DNA of 13,557 nt from Novosphingobium sp. CECT 9465 (GTDB lineage: Bacteria; Pseudomonadota; Alphaproteobacteria; Sphingomonadales; Sphingomonadaceae), in NCBI RefSeq assembly GCF_920987055.1, contig NZ_CAKLBX010000005.1:1-13557 (forward strand), written 5' to 3'. The notes under the pieces were generated by a model that was not told the DNA's origin, made no database searches, and saw nothing but the letters and a program-made list of their open reading frames with translations. Numbering within the stretch: position 1 is the stretch's first letter; each line of letters begins with the position of its first letter. Shown piece after piece: positions 1 to 13,557 of this stretch. The position numbers and the translations under genes were made by a program.

Positions 1-318
1 GCACAGCAGCGGAGCGCAACCGGCGCGGCGCTTCGAGCGCTTTGTCGCGCTCAGCCGGAGCGAGCTTGCGAAGGAGGGGAGGGGTTCTTCCGGCGCCCGC
101 AGCCGAGGGTCGAGGGAATCGATATCGAGGCGGCTCGACAGGCCAGGCGCGGCCGCCGCTGGGAACCCGATTTGCCGATGCTGTTGCAAACCTATCTGTC
201 CATTGCCCAGCGCGCGGAAGCGCGGGGCGAGCCGCTCGGTCGCCCCGCGGGGCCTGGAGACAATTATGGCTTCTATCGCTCGATGAAACAGCGCATCGGC
301 GCAAAAATGGACGAATGA
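1..318 (+). CDS. 3' end of an unrecognised protein (partial)
   Basis: A frame stays open from base 1 to a TGA at 316-318, so the gene begins upstream of the window. The last 65 or so codons look genuine: about 70% GC at third positions and an ordinary residue mix ending in GFYRSMKQRIGAKMDE. I do not recognise a family. The first 80 bases read better one frame over (there the residues are ARRFERFVALSRSELAKEG), so a frameshift near the G-rich stretch at about 72-88 is possible. If so, this is a broken gene, or the sequence has an error there. No promoter or start can be assigned. It ends about 90 bases from the decayed HTH gene, which converges on it from the other strand. Confidence 0.4.
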   Translation, partial: AQQRSATGAALRALCRAQPERACEGGEGFFRRPQPRVEGIDIEAARQARRGRRWEPDLPMLLQTYLSIAQRAEARGEPLGRPAGPGDNYGFYRSMKQRIGAKMDE

Positions 319-442
319 TCGCGGGCCGGGCGGCCTCGGTTGGCAAAATCGCCCTCAGAAGCCGTACAGCGCGATTTGGGGTCGCTGCCGTAAGTCGGGC
401 TGGCCTACGCCCGTTTTGGCGCTGTAAGGGGCATTTGCAGGG

Positions 443-457
443 GGCAAAATTTTTGCC
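443..457. repeat. A/T-cored palindrome (7-bp arms, 1-nt centre)
   Basis: GGCAAAA, T, TTTTGCC form a perfect palindrome in otherwise GC-rich DNA. It lies just inside the 3' end of the decayed HTH gene (minus strand) and downstream of the partial plus-strand gene. It could act as a weak bidirectional terminator, because an A-tract and a T-tract sit in the stem, but it has no separate U-tail. Bases 319-404 to its left hold no gene I can support. Confidence 0.3.
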
Positions 458-1344
458 TGGTTTTCAGGCCTGGGTCCGACTGATCGTCATAGCGTGCCAG
501 CAAGGCGTCGATCTTGGCGAGGGCGGCATCATAGTCCTCGATCGCCTCGCTGGAAAAACTGGCTCGGTTCGTCGGCCAGGGCGGTGGGGGAACGGAGGTC
601 GCCGCGCGTGACCGAGTAGAGCTTGACGCCCGAAACGGTTTCGATGGCCAGGTCGCCGGCTTCCGACAAGGCCTCCAGCATTTTTCCGGACCCCAAGGCG
701 GGTGACGCCCAGCACTGCCTCGATCTGCGACGACCGCAGCGGACCGAAGCTGGCGAGGAGGCCATAGAGCTGGGGCACGCGCGAATTCGCCCGCTTCGCA
801 CGGTAGCGATCGGCCAGCGCCTGGCGCGTGTCGCGGGCTTTTCGCGACCAGGCTGTAGAGGTGCTCCAGGACATCGCGCAAACGCCTCGGCCTGAACAAT
901 GGCGGCGTGCGCCGGGTTGTCGTCGACGTCGGCCGCGCGCACCGTGTCGAGCGGATCAGACCGTTCAGCGGCCAGCGCCGCACCATGGGCGCCGGTGGCT
1001 TGGAGATGCGCACCAAAGGCGCATTCGATCGCCCAGCGCGGGGAAGGTGGGCGCGGCCGCTCGATCACGACTTGCCGGTTCGCGAGCGCGATCGTGTCGG
1101 TCGTCCGCTCGGCGGGAGCGAAGCGCGGGCTCTGGCCGATGGCGCGGTGGAGGGCGGCGAGAGCGGTGAAGGGGAGGGGGGCCGGCTCGAGCGCCGCGGA
1201 CCAGGGCCGCGGCCTCGTCGATCGCGGCCTTTGCGGTTTCGGACGGCGGCAGCGCTGTCGGGATCGCGCAGCGCCAGACAGGCTTTTTCCAGCCCAGCGC
1301 CGCGTCGGCGAGCGGCGTCCAGCGGCTGCGGGTCATCTCCGCGA

Positions 1345-1349
1345 GCAGG
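1345..1349. repeat. Left target-site duplication, GCAGG
   Basis: GCAGG lies directly outside the left TGT terminus and again directly outside the right ACA terminus at 7395-7399. Five base pairs is the duplication length expected for Tn7/Tn5053-type transposition. Confidence 0.75.
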
Positions 1350-1364
1350 TGTCACGCGACAAAG
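1350..1364 (+). repeat. Left terminal inverted repeat
   Basis: TGTCACGCGACAAAG, counterpart of the right terminus at 7380-7394. It marks the abrupt switch from GC-rich, minus-strand gene sequence to AT-richer transposon end sequence. Confidence 0.7.
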
Positions 1365-1443
1365 TTTCCAACATCGGGTGTAAACTATTGAATTAAAGTC
1401 ATATTCTCGCGATAAAGTGACAGTCAAATATGACGCACAAAAG
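1352..1443 (+). repeat. Three direct transposase-binding-type repeats in the left end
   Basis: Three 13-base copies in the same orientation: TCACGCGACAAAG (1352-1364), TCTCGCGATAAAG (1405-1417; 11 of 13 equal to the first) and TGACGCACAAAAG (1431-1443; 10 of 13). The right terminus holds a related copy, TGACGCACCATAA (10 of 13 to the third). Multiple short repeats near each end are what TniA/TnsB transposases of this superfamily bind. The stretch is also clearly AT-richer than its surroundings and must include the tniA promoter. Confidence 0.55.
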
Positions 1444-1510
1444 ATTCTGCTTTCAACGGTGGTCAAAACAAACGACAGTCTGCGCGGCCGAAAGAGAGGG
1501 AAATTTCCCT

Positions 1511-3988
1511 ATGATCGAACGCAAACCGCCAAGAATGGCAGCGTATTCGGAAGCTGCGCTAACGCGCGGCGCGGACCTCTATCAAACTTTCCGCAAATTG
1601 GTTCCGCTGGACGCGCCGCTGGCGGCCGACGTTGTTTCTGTCATTGCCCGGGAAACTGGCTTGGGCGAGCGGCGAATTCGGGAGTTGGCGCGGCGCTATC
1701 GCAGCAAGCCCATTGCCGAGAGCCTGGCCTCACGGCCGCGCGGTCCAAAGCCAGGAAGTAGACAAGCGCCGCCAGAGGTCCTCGTGGCGATCGATGGCCT
1801 CATTGAAGAAATCGTTCTGACGAAAGTGCCGCTCAGTGTTCGGGAAGCGGCGCAGCAGGTGCGTTATTTGCTGATCGCCGATAATGGCGACTACGGCTTC
1901 GATCCCGGGATCGTTCCAAGTTTTCGAACGATCGAGCGGATAATCGGGGAGATAAGCGAGCCGCAGAAGGCTCGTTTCATGGGTTCGAAACGGCGTACCG
2001 CCCACGAGGCGCACCCGGGGGAATACCACAGCGATGGTTTGCTCGATGTGGTCCAGATGGATCACACCCCCGCCGACGTCATACTTGTCGACAGCACACA
2101 CCGTATGGCTCTGGGCCGACCGTGGGTGACCTTGCTCATCGACGTCTGGAGCCGATGCATTCTCGGCTTCTACGTGAGTTTTGGGGCACCTTCGATTTTT
2201 CGATGCGGACGGGCAATCGCCAATGCTCTGTTGCCGAAACAGCCGTTGCTCGAGAGTCTCGGTCTCGAAATCGAATATCCAATGCATGGTTTTTTCAGGA
2301 AGTTGCATGCCGATCACGCCGGATCTCATCGCGCGGAAGTTTTTAGAAGCGCTTGCAAGACTTATGGCATCGATCCGGACGTCCGCCCACGTGGTCCGGC
2401 GCATTATGGCACGCATATCGAGCGTCTGATCGGCACCATGACGCGTAGAATGCGGCTTCTTCCGGGGGCGACCGGAGGTAATGTTACGGCGCGAGACGGC
2501 CATGATGCGGAAGCGGACGCGGCGATGACGCTTGAGGAATTCGAGCGGTGGTTGGTCCGGGAGATTTGCCGCTATCATCATACACCTCACGAAGGACTGG
2601 GTCGCGTCGCACCTGCGCAAATGTGGTCCACGGGTGTCGAGAGCCACGGGCCGCTGGCGCCGCCAGGTGTCGATATCGAGCAGCTAACCCGCCGATTTCT
2701 GCCGTGGGTCGAGCGGACCGTTCAATCGGGCGGCGTGAAGATTGATCATATTCGCTATTGGCACGAAAGTTTGGCGCCGCGCCTGGGTCTCAAGGTCATG
2801 ATCCATTACGACGACAGGACTATCCAGGAGGTCTATCCTGTCATCGATGGAGTTCTTGTCGCTGCTGCTGCGGTGGGCAATTATCCGAACGTGACCAGGC
2901 CTGAATGGGATGTTGCGGTCGCTGCACGGCGCCATTCCGGCGTGGTTTACCAGCATGCTGGGGGTCAGGCTGAAATTGCGCGGCTTGTGCATGCCAACAG
3001 GCAGGAAGTTCTCAACGCGAAATCCCGGACGCGGGGCTTGCGAGACGCGCGAAAAAGGCTGGAAAGGGAAGGTGTATCCCACGCCGCTCAGCCGGCAAAT
3101 CAGGAGGTTTCCAATGTACCCAGTTGGGTATCGGTGGCCGACTTACACGATGAAGGGTGGCTCAAATGGAGGGATAGGTCAGCGCACAGTTCCGCTTTCT
3201 GGATCGACTTCGACGAAGCGCGTTTTGCCGTGGAAACGCTGGTTGATATCGCACATGACGAGCCTGATGAACGGCCGCCCTGCGTCATTCTCGTGGGTCA
3301 ATCCGGTATGGGGAAGACATCGATCCTGCGCGAAGCCCAGCGGCGTATCGAATGCGACTTTCCAGAGCCTGAAGGGTGGCGGGATGCCCGGTATGCTCCC
3401 GTCCTCAGGACCGTGATCCCAGCTAGTCCGACGTCGCTCAAGATCAACCTGACCTTGTTGTGGAAGCAGGGTTGGCCGATCACCACCAGTATCCACCGGA
3501 TTGCCGACCTGAAAGTCGTTGAATTGCTCGGCAGACAGCGGACGCGGTTAGTGGCGGTCGACAATGTTCACGCCATTCTCACCGCGGGCGGCAGGGCGAG
3601 GCGTGACACCCTCGATGCATTCCGGTTTCTGATGAGCGAAGGCAATGTGTCTATGGTTGTCGCCGGTCTCGAAATCGCCGCAGACATCTTTGCCGAGGAC
3701 GTCGAGCTGGCCTATCGCTCGATCGTCCTGCGATTGCCGCTCTGGCCGCCTGGAGAGCCATCCCAGCGCCTGATCCTTGCGCTGGCGCGGGGATTGCGCA
3801 TCATCGAGCCGGAACGCTTCGCTGAGCCCGAGATGGCCGAATTCATCTGGCGCACCAGCCATGGCGTGACAGGGAATTTCAAACGGCTTTTGCATTGGGG
3901 CCATAAGATTGCCTCTCGCGACGGTCGTCAGCGTGTTGAATTTGCAGATTTGCGCGCAGCAGCAGCGATGCTCCCGGCTTCAGCTTGA
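1511..3988 (+). CDS. tniA: TniA-TniB fusion: DDE transposase joined to AAA+ ATPase
   Basis: An 825-residue product from ATG 1511 combines two proteins that are normally separate. Residues 1-150 carry HTH-like segments, including ARETGLGERRIRELARRYRS. The RNase-H-like DDE core shows D184 (VVQMDHT), D268 (HADHAGSH) and E304 (HIERLIG); the 35-residue spacing before E is typical. A C-terminal Mu-type beta-barrel segment follows (IHYDDRTIQEVYPVIDGV). From about residue 535 the TniB-like ATPase begins: Walker A GQSGMGKT at 596-603 and Walker B LVAVDNVH with D684. TniA cuts and joins DNA ends; TniB is the ATP-dependent target selector. I chose ATG 1511 because it follows AGAGGG at 1495-1500, though the 10-base spacing is long. 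An in-frame ATG at 1430 would add 27 residues but lies within the end repeats. The strong AGGAGG at 3102-3107, just at the TniA/TniB boundary, hints that TniB was once, or still is, translated separately. Confidence 0.88.
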   Translation: MIERKPPRMAAYSEAALTRGADLYQTFRKLVPLDAPLAADVVSVIARETGLGERRIRELARRYRSKPIAESLASRPRGPKPGSRQAPPEVLVAIDGLIEEIVLTKVPLSVREAAQQVRYLLIADNGDYGFDPGIVPSFRTIERIIGEISEPQKARFMGSKRRTAHEAHPGEYHSDGLLDVVQMDHTPADVILVDSTHRMALGRPWVTLLIDVWSRCILGFYVSFGAPSIFRCGRAIANALLPKQPLLESLGLEIEYPMHGFFRKLHADHAGSHRAEVFRSACKTYGIDPDVRPRGPAHYGTHIERLIGTMTRRMRLLPGATGGNVTARDGHDAEADAAMTLEEFERWLVREICRYHHTPHEGLGRVAPAQMWSTGVESHGPLAPPGVDIEQLTRRFLPWVERTVQSGGVKIDHIRYWHESLAPRLGLKVMIHYDDRTIQEVYPVIDGVLVAAAAVGNYPNVTRPEWDVAVAARRHSGVVYQHAGGQAEIARLVHANRQEVLNAKSRTRGLRDARKRLEREGVSHAAQPANQEVSNVPSWVSVADLHDEGWLKWRDRSAHSSAFWIDFDEARFAVETLVDIAHDEPDERPPCVILVGQSGMGKTSILREAQRRIECDFPEPEGWRDARYAPVLRTVIPASPTSLKINLTLLWKQGWPITTSIHRIADLKVVELLGRQRTRLVAVDNVHAILTAGGRARRDTLDAFRFLMSEGNVSMVVAGLEIAADIFAEDVELAYRSIVLRLPLWPPGEPSQRLILALARGLRIIEPERFAEPEMAEFIWRTSHGVTGNFKRLLHWGHKIASRDGRQRVEFADLRAAAAMLPASA
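3101..3107 (+). promoter_or_regulatory. Strong Shine-Dalgarno motif inside the tniA-tniB fusion
   Basis: CAGGAGG is followed six bases later by ATG at 3114-3116, which is perfect spacing. That ATG is one frame away from the ATPase reading frame, and the in-frame codons after the motif (GTT TCC AAT GTA CCC) hold no usual start until a GTG at about 3131. It looks like the relic of a separate tniB start that a small indel has put into the wrong frame, fusing the genes. An internal start in frame is the alternative. Confidence 0.4.
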
Positions 3989-5031
3989 TGGCCGCCAAGT
4001 GGTCGCCCAATCTTGAGCCTGAGACGCTGGCGTTCCCGATCAAGCCACGCAGAGATGAAGCGTTTGATTCGTGGTTGAGCCGCTTGACCGCCGCCCACCG
4101 GGTGAGCCGGGCACAATTGTTCCGCCATCTGGAGATCGCGCCGGGTCTTTCGCGCTTGGACCTGGCGCGAGGGAAGGGCGGTCTCGATCCGGCGCTGCAT
4201 GCGGCCTGCGATGCGATGGTGGAACGGCTTGCATGGGCGGTCGAAATCGATCCCGAGCAGATCAATGCGACCTTTCTCGCGTGTGAGGCGGAGGCGCTCC
4301 TGCCCTCTGCGCACCGCCATTACGTCTGTGCGCTATGCTGTTACGAGGCGCATCTGGCTGGCGGGCCTATAATCGTGCGCCGCGAATGGATTTTTCGGGC
4401 GACCTGGCTATGCAGCCTGCACGGGTTGCCGCTCACCGACATGCGGAGCCTTCCATTGGAGGACACGGGGCGGCAATTGCAGGCGTTCTTGGCGCATGCC
4501 GTGATGCGATCTCGCAGAATTCAATGGAAAATCAAACCGACTTCTGCCGCGCTTGCGCGAAACAAGACAGTGATCGACTGCCTGATGCGCCCTAGCGATT
4601 GGGTGGGGCTTGCGCCGCCATACCAGCGTTATCAGGAGCAGTTCGTAGCCAATCAGTACCATTTTGCGCGCGAACGGATCGGCATGCTGGCGCTGGCGCA
4701 CAGCCCACGTACGAAAGCCGCGCACCGCTTTGAGCGTATGATCGCAACCAGACTGGCCGAGAGGCCGCTGACTGAAGGTAGAATTGAAACGCCGGTTCGA
4801 GGTGCATTGCGTCTGCGGACCTGCAAGCTCCCCAAGCCCAGATCCAAATGGACCTGCGACATCTTTGCGCTGATCGCCACATACGGCACTGTGCGCCAAC
4901 GCCAGGAGAAAGAAAGGGAGCTGGCGGCGGAATTCGCGCGCTACGAGGGTCTTCCTCTCCCGCCGACGGCAGCCTGGCCGTCTAGAAGCTTGCTTGATGC
5001 CGCCAATCTGGCAGTGCCAGGGTTGGCGTAA
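3988..5031 (+). CDS. tniQ: TniQ-type target-selection protein
   Basis: A 347-residue protein whose ATG overlaps the TGA of the upstream fusion gene by one base (TGATG), so translation is coupled. The N-terminus has the TniQ signature FPIKPRRDEAFDSWLSRL near residues 12-30. A zinc-finger-like module follows, with C114 and C117 (CALC) paired with C142 and H145 (CSLH), as in TniQ/TnsD N-terminal domains. The C-terminal half (residues 170-347) is basic and has no motif I can name. TniQ/TnsD proteins bind target DNA or a targeting partner and recruit the TniB/TnsC ATPase and transposase. The size is closer to TniQ of Tn5053 (about 400) than to TnsD (about 500). Its last 50 bases overlap the 3' end of the convergent gene at 4982-5950. 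Confidence 0.85.
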   Translation: MAAKWSPNLEPETLAFPIKPRRDEAFDSWLSRLTAAHRVSRAQLFRHLEIAPGLSRLDLARGKGGLDPALHAACDAMVERLAWAVEIDPEQINATFLACEAEALLPSAHRHYVCALCCYEAHLAGGPIIVRREWIFRATWLCSLHGLPLTDMRSLPLEDTGRQLQAFLAHAVMRSRRIQWKIKPTSAALARNKTVIDCLMRPSDWVGLAPPYQRYQEQFVANQYHFARERIGMLALAHSPRTKAAHRFERMIATRLAERPLTEGRIETPVRGALRLRTCKLPKPRSKWTCDIFALIATYGTVRQRQEKERELAAEFARYEGLPLPPTAAWPSRSLLDAANLAVPGLA

Positions 5032-5950
5032 TGGCGCAGACAAAGGTCGTGAACGGGCCTTGAGCGTAGGCCATGCGTGTTGCCTCCAGCTGGCGCAGGA
5101 GTTTGGCAGCACCGGCCTTGGTCGCGCCAAGCGCGCGGGCAAGTTGGGCGGGGGTGAGGGTGCCAAGGCCGAACAGCAGCATCCAGGCATGATAGAGGCG
5201 CGAGTTCGAACGCTGGCTCGGAAACTCGCGCGCAAAAACATCGGCGCCGCGCGGGAAACGGGCGATATCGCAGGCAGTAGCATAGAGTGCATCGTGCAGA
5301 CTCTCGCGGGCTTGGGCGCGGCGCTGGCTGGGGTCGCGGTCGGCCCTGAACAGTCGGCGCTGGACAAGGCCGGGGAAGGGGAGGGGGGTCTCGCTCAGCC
5401 GAAAGGCATGCCCGCGCGCGCTCGCCGCCAGGTTGATTGCCCAGCACGGGGTTCGGGCGGTTGCCGTCAGGGCATCGGGCTCGTTCCCGCGCGAATAGCG
5501 GAAGCGCTCGACGAGGGAAAGCAGCCGCTCGAGTGGATCGCCGGGCAGCTTGGCGTGACCCAGCGCGTCGAGTACGGCACTGAGTTCGGGAAGGCTGGCA
5601 GCGACGATGGTTTCGGTCTCTCGGGCTTCGCTGGCCATCGGCAGGATTGCGATCTTGCGCACTGTCCGGATGGCCTCGGCGATCACCTTTTCGGGGGTTG
5701 GCAGGGCGTGCTCGAAGAGGGCGAGGAAGGCGTTACGCTCGCCCATGCATTCGGCGCCGATCAGCGAGGCCCCGAGGGTAATCGCCCGGTCCTGGCGGTA
5801 TTGCTCCCAGGCACGGCTGAGCCAGTGGAGGGCGAGTGCGGCGCGCATTTCTGCGGAATAGCAGGTGTCGGAGGCCAGCAGGCATTTGGCCAGAGCATCG
5901 ATCTGGCCGATACGGAAGGCGATAGGGCCGGCGTCGATCGTGCTGCTCAA
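4982..5950 (-). CDS. HTH protein carried by the transposon (DUF1612-like, tentative)
   Basis: An intact 322-residue protein, read from TTG 5950, the first possible start after an in-frame stop; the ribosome site is weak. The N-terminal segment (residues 12-75, AFRIGQIDALAKCLL…) is helical and distantly resembles the start of the target-gene product at 7395-7929. A middle block TPCWAINLAASARGHAF near 170-185 parallels PRWAIECAFGAHLQ in the decayed copy. A helix-turn-helix lies at about 268-305 (RSNSRLYHAWMLLFG, LTPAQLARALGATKAGAAKLLRQL). It resembles plasmid-borne proteins with a DUF1612-like N-domain and C-terminal HTH, whose biochemical role is unknown. It is divergent from the recombinase at 6168 across 217 bp that hold an inverted repeat, which it might bind. 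It is convergent with tniQ and overlaps it by 50 bases. DNA binding is inferred from the HTH; partnership with the recombinase is inferred from the repeated gene arrangement. Confidence 0.75.
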   Translation of the reverse strand: MSSTIDAGPIAFRIGQIDALAKCLLASDTCYSAEMRAALALHWLSRAWEQYRQDRAITLGASLIGAECMGERNAFLALFEHALPTPEKVIAEAIRTVRKIAILPMASEARETETIVAASLPELSAVLDALGHAKLPGDPLERLLSLVERFRYSRGNEPDALTATARTPCWAINLAASARGHAFRLSETPLPFPGLVQRRLFRADRDPSQRRAQARESLHDALYATACDIARFPRGADVFAREFPSQRSNSRLYHAWMLLFGLGTLTPAQLARALGATKAGAAKLLRQLEATRMAYAQGPFTTFVCAITPTLALPDWRHQASF

Positions 5951-6072
5951 TTCAAGGCTTTCGCTCTGGAGGCTGCGAACTGGCTAACGGGACAGGGAAT
6001 CGTCGTCAACACAGAGTTTACTAAACCTACGCTTTGGTATCCTATCCATAGCATCGTAAATCGGCGGTATTT

Positions 6073-6091
6073 CCATAATCTAATATTATGG
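6073..6091. repeat. Inverted repeat in the divergent region of the transposon's HTH/recombinase pair
   Basis: CCATAAT, spacer CTAAT, ATTATGG. With three more bases on each side the arms match at 9 of 10. It lies in the 217-bp divergent spacer, 76 bp before the recombinase start, and has the same plan (ATAAT-N5-ATTAT) as the repeat at 7947-7973. It could be the crossover core of the neighbouring tyrosine recombinase (about 11-bp arms around a 7-bp centre) or an operator for the HTH protein. Confidence 0.6.
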
Positions 6092-6167
6092 TAAAATCAG
6101 CATTGCCCAGAGTGCCGATTTTGGCCCATAAAGTGCCCATGAAATCCACCCAAAACGATCCTTCCGC

Positions 6168-7310
6168 ATGACAACCGATCGTCCGTTCCCGTCATCGGTG
6201 GAACTGGTGCTCGGCGGCCACGGGATGCTGATCGATACCCGCGCCGCCAGTCCGCTGGCGCTTGAGGCCGCAGTCGCGGCGATGGCGCCGGCGACCAAGG
6301 CGGCCATCACGGCCGATCTCAAATGCTTTCTAGGGTGGTGCAAGGCGCGACGGCCTGTCGCCACGGCTGTTCCCGCCGAACCGGAAACGCTGGTCCACTA
6401 CTTGCACTGGTTGTCTAAAGGATCGGACACGCGCGCGGGTGCCAAGCCCGCCACCCTTGCCCGCCGGATCGCCTCGATCGCGCGCATTCACCGCATCCTG
6501 GGTTTTGGCGACACAGAGCCGCTGCCCACCCAGGCTGGAATGGTGCGCGATACGCTGAAAGCCATCCGCCGCAAAAAGCGTGAACGGCAAAAGCAGGCTG
6601 CGCCGCTACGGCTCGGCGAGGCGATGCAGGAGGGTCAGGCACCGCCCGAGGGGGTAACCGTCAACGCACTGCTGGCCTCGTGCGGCAGCGACATCATCGG
6701 TCTGCGTGACGCAGCGCTGATCAGTCTCGCCTATGACGCGGGCTTAAGAGTCTCCGAACTGGTCGGCACCACGGTTTCCGATCTGCGCCAAGTCGGCGAT
6801 GGCAGCGGACGGCTCGACATCGCGCATTCCAAGACTGACCAGTTGGGGGAGGGGGCTCTGGCCTGGCTGTCGGGCGACACCATGGCGCGCCTATCGACCT
6901 GGTTGCTCGCAAGCGGCATCGGCGAGGGTCCGGTGTTTCGGCGCATCAATGTTCTGAGCGGTCCGCCAGACGCCTCCGGGCAGCGAATTGTGCGGCACTA
7001 CATCGGGGCCAGGCCGCTCACGCGTCAGGGGGTGGTTGCGATCCTGCGTCGCCGGGTGCTGGAGGCGGTCGATTGCGGTCTCGTCGAAGTCGAGCCCGGG
7101 ATGGAAGGTGACACCGTGCGTGGGCTGAGCGCGCACTCGTTCCGGGTCGGGTTAACACAGGACCTGTTCGCAGCGGGCGAGGACGGCGCAGGGATCGCGC
7201 TGGCGCTGCGCTGGTCCTCGCCGACCACCGCGCTGCGATATGCCCGCGAGCTTGCCGTAGGCAATAATGCGGCCGCACGGGTGCTGGGCAAGTTGCGAGG
7301 GAGCGGCTGA
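6168..7310 (+). CDS. Tyrosine recombinase carried by the transposon
   Basis: A 380-residue site-specific recombinase. Residues about 35-140 form the core-binding, SAM-like domain (TKAAITADLKCFLGWCKARR, then LARRIASIARIHRILG). The catalytic domain has the full set: R194 (GLRVSEL), K222 (HSKTD), H323 and R326 (HSFRVG), W349 and the nucleophile Y358 (ALRYARE). It should break and rejoin DNA through a phosphotyrosine. It is divergent from the HTH gene at 5950 and is the last gene before the right end, 84 bp away. The family has many uses: integration, plasmid dimer resolution, cointegrate resolution. Its place in a TniA/TniQ element that lacks a serine resolvase suggests cointegrate resolution, which is inference. 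The ATG at 6168 has no good ribosome site, but its relative at 8013 aligns in length from the same point. Confidence 0.88.
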   Translation: MTTDRPFPSSVELVLGGHGMLIDTRAASPLALEAAVAAMAPATKAAITADLKCFLGWCKARRPVATAVPAEPETLVHYLHWLSKGSDTRAGAKPATLARRIASIARIHRILGFGDTEPLPTQAGMVRDTLKAIRRKKRERQKQAAPLRLGEAMQEGQAPPEGVTVNALLASCGSDIIGLRDAALISLAYDAGLRVSELVGTTVSDLRQVGDGSGRLDIAHSKTDQLGEGALAWLSGDTMARLSTWLLASGIGEGPVFRRINVLSGPPDASGQRIVRHYIGARPLTRQGVVAILRRRVLEAVDCGLVEVEPGMEGDTVRGLSAHSFRVGLTQDLFAAGEDGAGIALALRWSSPTTALRYARELAVGNNAAARVLGKLRGSG

Positions 7311-7379
7311 GGCAGAAGCAGGCCAATGTCACTATTGTTGAAGCGCTAAAGGCTCCGCTTGGACCCGGCATGACGTCAA

Positions 7380-7394
7380 TTATGGTGCGTCACA
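7380..7394 (-). repeat. Right terminal inverted repeat
   Basis: Read inward on the minus strand it is TGTGACGCACCATAA, matching the left terminus at 10 of 15 positions including TGT and ACGC. The 84 bp between the recombinase stop and this end hold a further TGTCAC at 7327-7332 but no clear series of repeats like that at the left end. Confidence 0.65.
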
Positions 7395-7399
7395 GCAGG
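7395..7399. repeat. Right target-site duplication, GCAGG
   Basis: Identical to 1345-1349 and directly adjacent to the terminal ACA. Confidence 0.75.
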
Positions 7400-7929
7400 G
7401 GAGTGGTCACCATCCCCTTGTCGCGCAGAGCGAAGGGCAGCGAGAGCCAGGGCAGGGCGGTGCTGTCGAGACGCGCATGCTGGCGGACCCGATCGAGCGC
7501 GCGGATCAGCGGCGAATGGTCCGCGGCTATCTCGATCTCGCCGATCGCGGTCGGAAGCGCGTCGCGCCAGGCGAGGGGGTCGGGATCGCGCAGCGCCGCT
7601 TCCCAGGCGGGAAAGCGATCGAACAGGTCGAGGTTGGTCGACCGCAGCGGCCGGCCGGGGATTTGCAGCCCGCAGCCCCAGGAAAATACGTCAATTTCGT
7701 CGATCTCGGCCGATTGCAGTTGCAGGGCCCGGGTGTAGCCACTCCAGGCGGCGCGGCGTGCCCAGGCCGATGCCACCGAACTAACGCAAAACCGGGCATC
7801 GAGACGCGTAATGGCGGCCGTGCAGGAGGCGATCGCGGAGACCATCTTCGCGCTGTAGGCGGGGCCGTAGCGGCTGTTCGAGAGAGGCGCGTCCACGCCG
7901 TCTTTTAACCCAGAGCTGCTCTCAGTCAA
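7395..7929 (-). pseudogene. N-terminal part of HTH (DUF1612-like) gene cut by the transposon
   Basis: Reads from TTG 7929 for about 178 residues with no frame damage, then runs into the transposon end and stops at a TGA (7390-7392) supplied by the terminal repeat. An internal ATG (KMVSAIAS, residue 29) is an alternative start that fits the family better. Visible blocks are AAITRLDARFCVSSVASAWARR, EIDEIDVFSWGCGLQIPGRPL, FPAWEAALRDPDPLAW and PWLSLPFALRDKGMVTTP, a style I associate with DUF1612-like proteins of sphingomonad plasmids. The HTH-bearing C-terminal part is at 405-1349, on the far side of the transposon. Divergent from the recombinase at 8013 across a short spacer with a long inverted repeat. 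The truncated product lacks the HTH, so any regulatory role is probably lost. Confidence 0.72.
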
Positions 7930-7946
7930 ATTGGCTCGTATGCGTA

Positions 7947-7973
7947 GTCGTGATAATGGGAGATTATCACGAC
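7947..7973. repeat. Perfect 11-bp inverted repeat in the divergent region of the target HTH/recombinase pair
   Basis: GTCGTGATAAT, spacer GGGAG, ATTATCACGAC. Both arms match perfectly. It sits between the truncated HTH gene and the recombinase, 39 bp before the chosen recombinase start. Its inner part, ATAAT-N5-ATTAT, is shared with the repeat at 6073-6091 while the outer arms and spacer differ. Candidate recombinase core site or HTH-protein operator. Confidence 0.7.
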
Positions 7974-8012
7974 CCTATTATTATGAGAAGGACCGGGCTA
8001 TGTCTCGCCGTC

Positions 8013-9152
8013 ATGGCGAAAACGGCCCTCACCCGCAGGCAAAGCACGCCGCCCGCCGGCGCCGACGACGTCGTGGGCGAGGTCCGCGCGCTGGCTATCG
8101 ACAAGGCGGCGGTCGATCCGCAGGTCATCGCGGCCGCGGCGCGGGCCTGGTCGCCGAACACGATCCGCGCGTTCCTTTCCGACATGAAGCTCTGGGATGC
8201 TTGGTGCCGGCGCACCCGAGTGCGGGCAGGGGAGGCGACCGCCGAGACCGTCGCGGCCTATGTCCGCGCGCTGTCGGGTCAGGATCATGATGAGGCGACG
8301 CGGGCGACGCCGCAGAGGGCGGCCGCGACGATCGCGCGCTATCTCGTCAATATCGGCTGGGCCTATCGCATGGCGGGGCTGGACGATCCGACCGCAGCCC
8401 CGCTCGTGCAGCTCGAGCACAAGGCGGCGCGCAAGCTTCTCGGCACCCGCCAGACGCAGGCGCGGGGTATCCGCTACAAGGGCGATGTCAGCGATCTCGA
8501 CGCGCCGGCGAGCGGCGTGAGCCTCGCGGTCCTCCTCAAGGCCACGCGCCGCGATCTCCTGGGCGCGCGCGATCGCGCGCTACTGCAGGTCAACTATGAT
8601 ACCGGCTGCCGGCGCTCCGAACTCGCGGCGATGCGTATCGAGCATATCGACGGGCCCGACGTCGACGGGGCAGGGGTGGTCGAGATCGGCCGCAGCAAGA
8701 CCGATCAGGAAGGGCAGGGGGCTCTCGCCTATCTCTCGCCCGCGACCATGCGCGCGATCGCTGAATGGTGCGACAAGGCCGGGATTGCGCGCGGGGCCCT
8801 GTTCCGGCGCGTCGAAACCTGGTTCGATGGCTCGATCCGCGGTGTGGGAGAGGAGGCGCTCAACCCCGGCACGATCACGCTCATCTACAAGCGGTTGATC
8901 CGCCAGGCATTCGACAAGAAACTGCTGGGGGCGATGAGCGAGGCCGAGCTCGAGCGCTGGGTCGCGGCCGTGTCGAGCCATTCGATCCGGGTTGGCGTGG
9001 CGCAAGACAATTTTGCGGCAGGAGAGAGCCTGCCCGCCATCATGCAGGCCTATCGCTGGCGCGATCCCAAGACGGTCATGCGCTATGGCGCGAAGCTGGC
9101 GGCCAAGAGCGGAGCGAGTGCGCGTCTCGCGAAGCGTTTCGGCGGTGAATGA
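8013..9152 (+). CDS. Tyrosine recombinase beside the transposon
   Basis: A 379-residue paralogue of the recombinase at 6168-7310. The core-binding domain spans about residues 35-130 (ARAWSPNTIRAFLSDMKLWDAWCRR). Catalytic residues are R200 (GCRRSEL), K229 (RSKTDQ), H323 and R326 (HSIRVG), W349 and Y358 (VMRYGAK). Starting from ATG 8013, the last four have exactly the same residue numbers as in the other recombinase, which favours this start over the upstream GTG 7950 or ATG 7956, which lie inside the inverted repeat, or ATG 7983. The ribosome site at 8013 is poor. Both recombinases share KTDQ, GxGALAxLS and FAAGE motifs but otherwise differ widely, so they are old relatives rather than a recent duplication. 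Its original partner was the HTH gene now cut in two. Confidence 0.88.
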   Translation: MAKTALTRRQSTPPAGADDVVGEVRALAIDKAAVDPQVIAAAARAWSPNTIRAFLSDMKLWDAWCRRTRVRAGEATAETVAAYVRALSGQDHDEATRATPQRAAATIARYLVNIGWAYRMAGLDDPTAAPLVQLEHKAARKLLGTRQTQARGIRYKGDVSDLDAPASGVSLAVLLKATRRDLLGARDRALLQVNYDTGCRRSELAAMRIEHIDGPDVDGAGVVEIGRSKTDQEGQGALAYLSPATMRAIAEWCDKAGIARGALFRRVETWFDGSIRGVGEEALNPGTITLIYKRLIRQAFDKKLLGAMSEAELERWVAAVSSHSIRVGVAQDNFAAGESLPAIMQAYRWRDPKTVMRYGAKLAAKSGASARLAKRFGGE

Positions 9153-12446: not shown

Positions 12447-12490
12447 TATCTCCCAGTGCTTGATCCAGACTAGGTCAGGCAAACCCCCGT

Positions 12491-12586
12491 GGGTAGCAGC
12501 TAGCTCACAGATATCTGCTGGTTGGGTATCAGCTAGCTATCACATAGGTAGCGGTTGCCAAACTGCTAGAGAGCGGCTAGCTATCC
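12491..12586. repeat. Candidate centromere/operator of the partition cassette
   Basis: Near-identical 15-mers GGGTAGCAGCTAGCT (12491-12505) and GGGTATCAGCTAGCT (12524-12538) are 33 bp apart, close to three helical turns. A third related block, AAACTGCTAG…GGCTAGCTATCC, spans 12560-12586. Each block holds the palindrome GCTAGC. Short repeats upstream of a small parA with an RHH partner are usually both the centromere and the autoregulatory operator. A further copy lies at the right edge of the window. Confidence 0.65.
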
Positions 12587-13246: not shown

Positions 13247-13551
13247 TGGCCGATATCTCGAAGCTAAAGAAGGCTACTCGTTTGGGTTCACCCCCACCAA
13301 TCAGTGAGGCGAGCCAGAATTTGGATGCACCCGAAGTAGCCCCCGCCCCTCCGGCTGCACCGCTGATAACCGCAACCCGCATTGATGCCCGCAGTTCGCG
13401 CAAGACTAACCGCACTCAACAATTTGCGACTAGGGTCACACCCGAATGGGACAATCGAATCCGCGAAATAGCTCAACGTGAGGGTCTGCTTCTTACAGAA
13501 GTGCTCGAGAAGGCACTCGACGCTTATGAGAAACTGCTAGCTCAAAGGTAG
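13243..13551 (+). CDS. Small ribbon-helix-helix partition protein (ParG-like)
   Basis: A 102-residue protein whose ATG overlaps the parA stop (ATGA), so it is translationally coupled; ATG 13246 is an equal alternative. Residues 26-42 are a Pro/Ala-rich linker. Residues 45-57 are Arg-rich (TRIDARSSRKTNR) and would be a flexible arm like the one with which ParG stimulates its ATPase. Residues 58-99 form an RHH fold: strand TQQFATRV, helix WDNRIREIAQRE, turn, helix LTEVLEKALDAYEKLL. By analogy with ParF/ParG it binds the centromere repeats as a dimer, links them to ParA and represses its own operon. The stop codon lies within the last set of GCTAGC repeats. Confidence 0.78.
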   Translation: MMADISKLKKATRLGSPPPISEASQNLDAPEVAPAPPAAPLITATRIDARSSRKTNRTQQFATRVTPEWDNRIREIAQREGLLLTEVLEKALDAYEKLLAQR

Positions 13552-13557
13552 CTAGCC
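13531..13557. repeat. Second set of GCTAGC partition repeats (cut by window edge)
   Basis: AAACTGCTAGCTC and GGTAGCTAGCC. The 10-mer AAACTGCTAG is identical to 12560-12569 upstream of parA. GCTAGC occurs at 13536-13541 and 13551-13556. The repeats overlap the 3' end of the RHH gene and probably continue beyond the window. Confidence 0.55.

Follow-up and report, generated by a model that had tools for sequence, protein, structure and literature searches.

Transposons of a mainly sphingomonad TniABQ clade insert mostly in helix-turn-helix genes beside site-specific recombinase genes and probably seek plasmid resolution loci

The DNA under study, referred to below as the window, is a stretch of 13,557 nucleotides from Novosphingobium sp. 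CECT 9465 and makes up the whole of one contig (C5) of a 4.39-Mb genome in six contigs. It carries a transposon of 6,045 b, named here E1 (1350..7394, plus strand), with TGT..ACA ends, imperfect inverted repeats and GCAGG on both sides; four further copies, on contigs C1, C2, C3 and C4, have ends at identical bases. The two ends of E1 agree with each other at 10 of the first 14 and at 17 of 30 bases; the terminal inverted repeats typical of the Tn5053/Tn402 family are 25 bp long. The gene order is tniA (1430..3180, end approximate; a DDE transposase, Pfam Mu-transpos_C), tniB (3165..3988, start approximate; an AAA ATPase by Pfam TniB PF05621 and family profile) and tniQ (3985..5031; target selector family, Pfam PF06527), all on the plus strand, followed by a helix-turn-helix (HTH) gene on the minus strand (4982..5950, 322 aa, recognised by family profile) and, divergent from it, a Cre-like tyrosine recombinase gene on the plus strand (6168..7310, 380 aa) with its catalytic residues present. 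Mu-transpos_C, TniB and TniQ matches in order and above Pfam cut-offs, the ends shared by all five E1 copies and the 5-bp duplications found in 11 clean loci of the clade place E1 among the Tn7-like heteromeric TniABQ elements. No TnsA gene was found among the open reading frames (ORFs) of E1, and the element is therefore probably replicative. Further, E1 has no serine resolvase among the ORFs compared with Pfam, and neither mer nor integron cargo.

The carried pair lies beside a second, similarly arranged pair. Immediately right of E1, the stretch 7395..7929 (minus strand) covers the N-terminal portion of C4's target HTH gene, which is of type T2; on C4 the C-terminal part starts at profile residue 208 and the N-terminal part runs to residue 204. 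This stretch is followed by the target tyrosine recombinase gene (8013..9152, open from 7950, plus strand, 379 aa; ORF and Pfam). The first-pass annotation had reported the carried HTH gene and both recombinase genes, all of which exist as ORFs, and had described the recombinases as relatives with H323, R326, W349 and Y358 at equal positions, which alignment bears out (35% identity over 379 columns, E 1e-52). R194, K222, H323, R326 and Y358 are invariant in 41 aligned recombinases, that of E1 included, and W349 is kept in 37 of the 41; among solved structures Cre is nearest to the carried recombinase by sequence. The carried HTH protein has weak, below-cut-off Pfam similarity to MarR_2 and RHE_PE00001, and a sequence search of the PDB returned one match of no use (E 0.97). 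The spacer of E1 holds a candidate core site or operator (6069..6095; 11-bp arms, 9 of 11 paired, 5-bp spacer; same in the C1 copy) with a second palindrome, also 9 of 11 paired, nearby, and the target locus holds another candidate core site (7947..7973; perfect 11-bp arms, 5-bp spacer; also in the C4 copy). Palindromes with 11-b arms and at least 9 paired positions occur upstream of 31 of 64 recombinases vs. 1 of 64 windows inside genes, a count that takes in some distant loci and control windows in genes of other composition. In some loci they go with the type of recombinase, in others with that of the HTH gene; they may be core sites or HTH operators.

It had been proposed that homologues of E1 might cluster at such loci, and a survey of relatives was therefore made. 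TniA relatives were taken from 60 of 4,564 records in one list and from the best 80 of 560 in another; among the matches listed, those with at least 50% identity come from sphingomonads, apart from a few in metagenome bins that bear different names, and the next relatives reach at most 38%. The sample comprised 18 of 19 plasmid loci (H15, which repeats a plasmid sequence present under another record, was omitted) and 47 genome-contig loci (L033-L078, L084). Profiles of HTH, recombinase (REC), TniA, TniB and TniQ were built from element proteins and from pairs beside elements, the HTH profile used for the flank counts from ten HTH proteins adjacent to recombinases in plasmid loci and E1. Flank counts needed at least 500 b of left flank, and the count of carried genes at least 6.7 kb to the right. 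Omitted from the counts were the window itself, L111 and L114-L116 as repeats of fetched places (L112 too in the loose clustering) and L084, in which TniA is in pieces; L012 was omitted from the near-identical cluster and from the counts of carried genes and of TniA/REC discordance. Left ends lie 159-166 b ahead of the start of the tniA profile in almost all elements and are alike across the clade. Matches occur in 3 of 298 genomes of the family, the own genome included (E 1e-100), and in 7 of 396 genomes of the order (E 1e-150). Eleven loci from further genomes of the order (L112, L113, L121-L129) add little, since six left flanks are identical to known loci and four are unusable; L113 gave a new left flank, with an HTH gene, which is already counted.

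The placement of these elements is not random. The 60 elements with sufficient left flank gave 55 non-redundant left flanks, and a profile search detected an HTH gene on the minus strand at 49 of them and on the plus strand at none; 46 of the 49 genes are broken, at -30 to +15 b from the element end. The background away from the elements is 1,467 of 383,582 bases (0.4%). Under very loose clustering (65%) the HTH gene is still found at 43 of 49 flanks, broken at 40. In all 46 broken cases the tniA end points to the 3' side of the HTH gene and the other end to the recombinase, where one remains. Moreover, 12 near-identical elements (at least 95%, single linkage) sit at 11 flanks, ten of which are broken HTH genes, which suggests that the insertions were recent, independent and aimed. 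As an observation in its own right, the five bases before the left end lean clade-wide to GCNGG (GCAGG in 5 of 59).

Proof of insertion comes from 11 loci with clean 5-bp duplications and matching ends. When the flanks of these loci are joined, one ORF of 333-370 aa on the HTH strand crosses the junction in 8 of the 11, with the junction at residue 110-163. In L015 the junction lies at residue 379 of a joined frame that forms an HTH gene of 405 residues; L012, although frame-shifted, has halves that still match at profile residues 208 and 204; and the joined flanks of L039 show no HTH-strand frame across the junction. A natural empty site is provided by plasmid pTSSC1 (L131), which aligns with L019 at 96.3% over 4,000 b on the left and 86.6% over 329 b on the right with an overlap of 5 b, and in which the HTH gene is unbroken and accompanied by a tyrosine recombinase. 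Weaker end pairings, identical at no more than 7 of the terminal 14 bases (L009, L011, L029, L051 and second candidates in L010 and the window), were rejected as chance.

The target HTH genes fall into types T1, T2 and T3, for which profiles were built from the joined target ORFs, so that the matching of the two halves is independent only for L012, L030 and L035. It could be argued that conserved DNA within the HTH coding sequence is itself recognised, as glmS is by Tn7 or comM by Tn6022, with the neighbouring recombinase incidental. Breakage of the HTH frame at 46 of 55 flanks would agree with this, as would the wide distribution of T3 in sphingomonad plasmids, where 34 records match, 26 of them over at least 80% of the query. 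However, T1 and T2 have no similarity to each other by profile, insertion points are spread from about profile residue 44 to 208, and individual elements sit elsewhere: L047 in a recombinase gene, L072 340 b outside an HTH match, and L049 before a serine resolvase gene without a recognised HTH gene. We therefore regard recognition of HTH DNA as quite unlikely.

On the other side of the elements, a plus-strand recombinase gene lies within 1 kb in 18 of 32 non-redundant right flanks, against a background of 7 recombinase matches in 383,582 bases. Twelve of these are tyrosine recombinases and six serine recombinases, and two of the 18 are fragments; in 13 loci, excluding those shortened to near zero, the start of the recombinase gene is 306-862 b beyond the right end. 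A prey consisting of tyrosine recombinase loci only was therefore rejected: the six are serine resolvases, and each of T1, T2 and T3 is found with recombinases of both classes, which makes the resolution locus the prey, irrespective of recombinase class. The earlier suggestion that a TniQ element hunts recombination sites is thus well supported in its general form; the restriction to tyrosine recombinases fell, and the elements land in the HTH gene. Genes for replication (rep) or partition (par) are close in 16 of 17 annotated plasmid stretches, and also in L131 and L132, plasmids in which an unbroken T3 HTH gene lies divergent from a tyrosine recombinase gene (L131) or a serine resolvase gene (L132) beside parA-parB. 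L130 has an HTH gene near rep, with no recombinase annotated in the stretch. Judged from gene content, this layout is as would be expected for plasmid multimer resolution.

The proximity to rep and par genes, together with flanks that recur (L025/L061/L062 and L020/L077), might also be explained without any targeting, if insertions elsewhere harm the plasmid and vanish, or if one old insertion has been inherited with the backbone. We find this very improbable, because near-identical elements have 11 different flanks, with differing duplications and residues of insertion, and because the orientation is uniform, 49 to 0, on a background of 0.4%.

Cumulatively, our findings make it probable that a mainly sphingomonad TniABQ clade, E1 included, seeks the resolution loci of plasmids. 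Its members, as the sequences show, insert with 5-bp duplications in an HTH gene divergent from a site-specific recombinase gene, usually by rep or par. The HTH/tyrosine recombinase pair that most of them carry may serve as the element's own system of cointegrate resolution, and TniQ, together with TniB, may be drawn to the nucleoprotein complex that the resident resolution system forms, much as Tn5053 senses a resolvase-occupied res site. Because the elements land in the HTH gene and not at the recombination site, the HTH protein, the recombinase complex and nearby DNA are all candidates for what is sensed.

By analogy, res-site hunting by Tn5053/Tn402 is the closest known system, which the E1 clade appears to extend to another recombinase class. 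TniQ of Tn5053/Tn402 is credited with guiding the element to the sites of resolvases (PMC7765201, PMC11406308). The likenesses comprise the tniA-tniB-tniQ order, the 5-bp duplication, a resolution system of their own (putative in E1), and insertion in or near resolution loci of plasmids in one orientation; that the loci entered by the E1 clade resolve plasmid multimers is our reading of their gene content. Further, it is the end distal to tniA that points to the recombinase gene, like the IRo end, which lies next to parA in Tn5053 relatives (PMC7765201). Unlike Tn5053/Tn402, E1 has a tyrosine recombinase and an HTH gene in place of the serine resolvase TniR with res, lacks the mer or integron cargo, and belongs to a clade that targets tyrosine as well as serine loci and inserts in the divergent HTH gene instead of in res. 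Our literature search, which mostly did not reach subscription papers, found no report of TniABQ insertion at tyrosine recombinase loci.

As a putative resolution system, the carried pair resembles TnpS/TnpT/rst of Tn4651, in which a helper and a tyrosine recombinase are divergent with the site between them (PMC7157771). The divergent layout is shared, the spacer of E1 holds candidate palindromes, and the REC profile matches TnpS, the recombinase of pWW0 (L117), with 117.8 bits. The corresponding region, L117 29463-31613, is presumably tnpT/tnpS and fits the layout; the genes are not named in the record. In contrast to the HTH gene, the pWW0 helper is a KfrA_N protein without a match to the HTH profile, and Tn4651 is a Tn3-family element. 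Carriage of a recombinase agrees with Tn7-like elements without TnsA, which carry a tyrosine or serine resolvase and are expected to need one (PMC8649781); insertion at tyrosine recombinase loci is not described in the available part of that paper.

The carried genes might have another role. Of the 50 elements with enough sequence, 40 carry a near-complete HTH gene (at least 200 of 352 profile positions) together with a near-complete recombinase gene (at least 300 of 379), in agreement with the expectation that most copies would carry the pair. The other ten comprise four with a nested element (L009, L022, L023, L047), four with a shortened recombinase (L026, L027, L029, L055) and two without one. 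Such regular carriage would suit a model in which the carried HTH protein or recombinase is itself the target selector, binding a related target site and handing it to TniQ, and TnsF of Tn6022, a selector with an inactive tyrosine recombinase domain that targets comM, offers a precedent (PMC10293859). We consider this unlikely, since the recombinases retain their catalytic residues, elements with tyrosine recombinases also occur at serine resolvase loci, and related tniABQ sets are found with different pairs. E1 and Tn6022 do share a link between a tyrosine recombinase fold and TniQ targeting; TnsF, however, is inactive and its target is comM, whereas the recombinases of the E1 clade look active from their sequences and the target is a recombinase locus (PMC10293859). 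Tyrosine recombinases acting in trans have been proposed as early selectors that could be captured as cargo (Faure and others, PMC10293859), and the E1 clade looks like this proposed stage.

Several observations weigh against the view that the clade seeks plasmid resolution loci. The attraction by a recombinase complex is argued from analogy. By profile, six of the 55 left flanks lack an HTH gene (L015, L016, L048, L049, L039, L073); L015 sits at the 3' end of one, as seen from its right flank, L049 has its serine resolvase gene 306 b from the right end, and L039 has a clean duplication at an unrelated place. Three HTH genes are unbroken at the element end (L047, L067, L072), the element of L067 lying 150 b beside the HTH match. 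In 14 of 32 right flanks the first 1 kb is without a plus-strand recombinase, and one of these 14 carries a serine recombinase on the minus strand; clean duplications were seen in only 11 loci; and the right end abuts the recombinase in L009, L028, L034 and L038. These last three observations suggest that later rearrangement is common. Moreover, the candidate core site lies hundreds of bases away from the landing place in the HTH gene, the palindromes are candidates judged against control windows unmatched in composition, and no tyrosine recombinase of their own was found in L031 and L032.

If elements of the clade seek such loci, they would be expected to hit each other because they carry the same kind of locus, as the sequences in part show. 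In L009, L022 and L023 the HTH gene of one element is broken by another, with no duplications found. In L035 an element with an ACTGT duplication lies in a T2 HTH/recombinase pair that closes with a right end of another type. The resulting composite of 7,847 b, which runs from the newcomer's left end to the right end of the other type, is identical in L035 and in L071, a second plasmid of the same strain, where it has a CTCAG duplication and lies in a T1 HTH gene before a serine resolvase gene. This suggests that the composite moved as a unit, the hit having added a recombinase module; a newcomer's left end and the right end beyond the resident recombinase may in this way move together, so that hits supply new recombinase modules. 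Similarity of TniA and of the recombinase is discordant among 17 representatives (correlation 0.50; e.g. TniA 58% with REC 84%, TniA 77% with REC 40%), as repeated exchange would give.

Exchange of flanks also bears on the window, which is a mosaic. In contig alignment, 1-7394 matches C1 and 1345-13557 matches C4, with gaps and zero substitutions in both; gaps are dense within 1-1349, which speaks for error-prone sequence there. A single outer HTH gene split by E1, as the first-pass annotation described it, was accordingly rejected for the window: its left side is derived from C1 and its right side from C4. The left HTH pieces (405..1349, minus strand, frame-shifted in the window contig) belong to a second, related transposon of C1, E2, which has also left a C-terminal remnant of its tniQ (1..318, plus strand, by family profile). 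GCAGG left of E1 (1345..1349) here lies within the C1-derived flank, and GCAGG on the right (7395..7399) is the target duplication of the C4 locus. The split does hold on C4, where a single HTH gene is truly interrupted with the same duplication, GCAGG, and the two pairs stand side by side in one orientation. At E 1e-4 the HTH profile finds ten matches in the own genome, five E1 cargo genes and five pieces adjoining E1; the C4 target HTH gene and that broken by E2 fail this threshold. In L042 and L065 the HTH parts left and right of one element likewise differ in type, as would be expected of true flank exchange between copies.

The contig itself may be either an assembly fault or a true recombinant, but that the window is only an assembly chimera and the finding an artefact is hardly credible: the C1-like left side is joined to the C4-like right side through the repeated element with gaps as the sole differences, as a chimera would have it, but from 1345 onward, where both pairs lie, the window is colinear with C4, and the pattern recurs in many named plasmids. 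A tniA-tniB fusion as a trait of the family was rejected, because the fused frame, in which tniA runs into tniB, is seen in the window contig only, while in the C1, C2 and C3 copies tniB (277 aa) and tniA (582 aa) have separate ORFs; several further gaps are peculiar to the C4 copy.

Hunting of res sites is known for serine resolvases, and a clade that finds tyrosine loci as well as serine ones would uncouple the detection of a resolution complex from the chemistry of any particular recombinase, so that what TniQ reads becomes testable. It would further offer a natural candidate for the proposed Tn7-like stage in which a recombinase in trans guides insertion, and exhibits a route by which transposons may renew their resolution module. 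The HTH genes, found with both recombinase classes, may be an unrecognised part of plasmid multimer resolution. More tentatively, and with doubt prevailing, we hypothesize that the HTH protein represents a hitherto undescribed factor of plasmid resolution, serving both recombinase classes and acting as a beacon that the transposon reads; its own beacon locus would make an element the prey of its relatives, each nested hit adding a fresh recombinase module behind tniABQ. If so, targeting and module capture would be one self-feeding process, and a living case of the proposed trans-recombinase stage of Tn7-like selectors.

Some minor observations were made outside the clade and around its loci. 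Among more distant TniABQ elements (L081-L110, TniA at most 38%), a tyrosine recombinase gene lies directly beyond the left end in 13 of 31 loci, with its start toward that end, opposite to the arrangement of E1; several of the other loci have little left flank, and comparison of L083 with L085, L086 and L082 confirmed the left end for one group. The habit may thus be wider. On the 3.74-Mb contig C1, parA-like and replication-initiator-like ORFs, judged by eye, adjoin E2/E1 (L009 15820-18137), which may indicate an integrated replicon or a joined plasmid. Lastly, direct repeats of 27-33 nt lie near a ParA-like ORF and a small ORF in the window (12490-12555 and 13527-13553), possibly partition or iteron sites.

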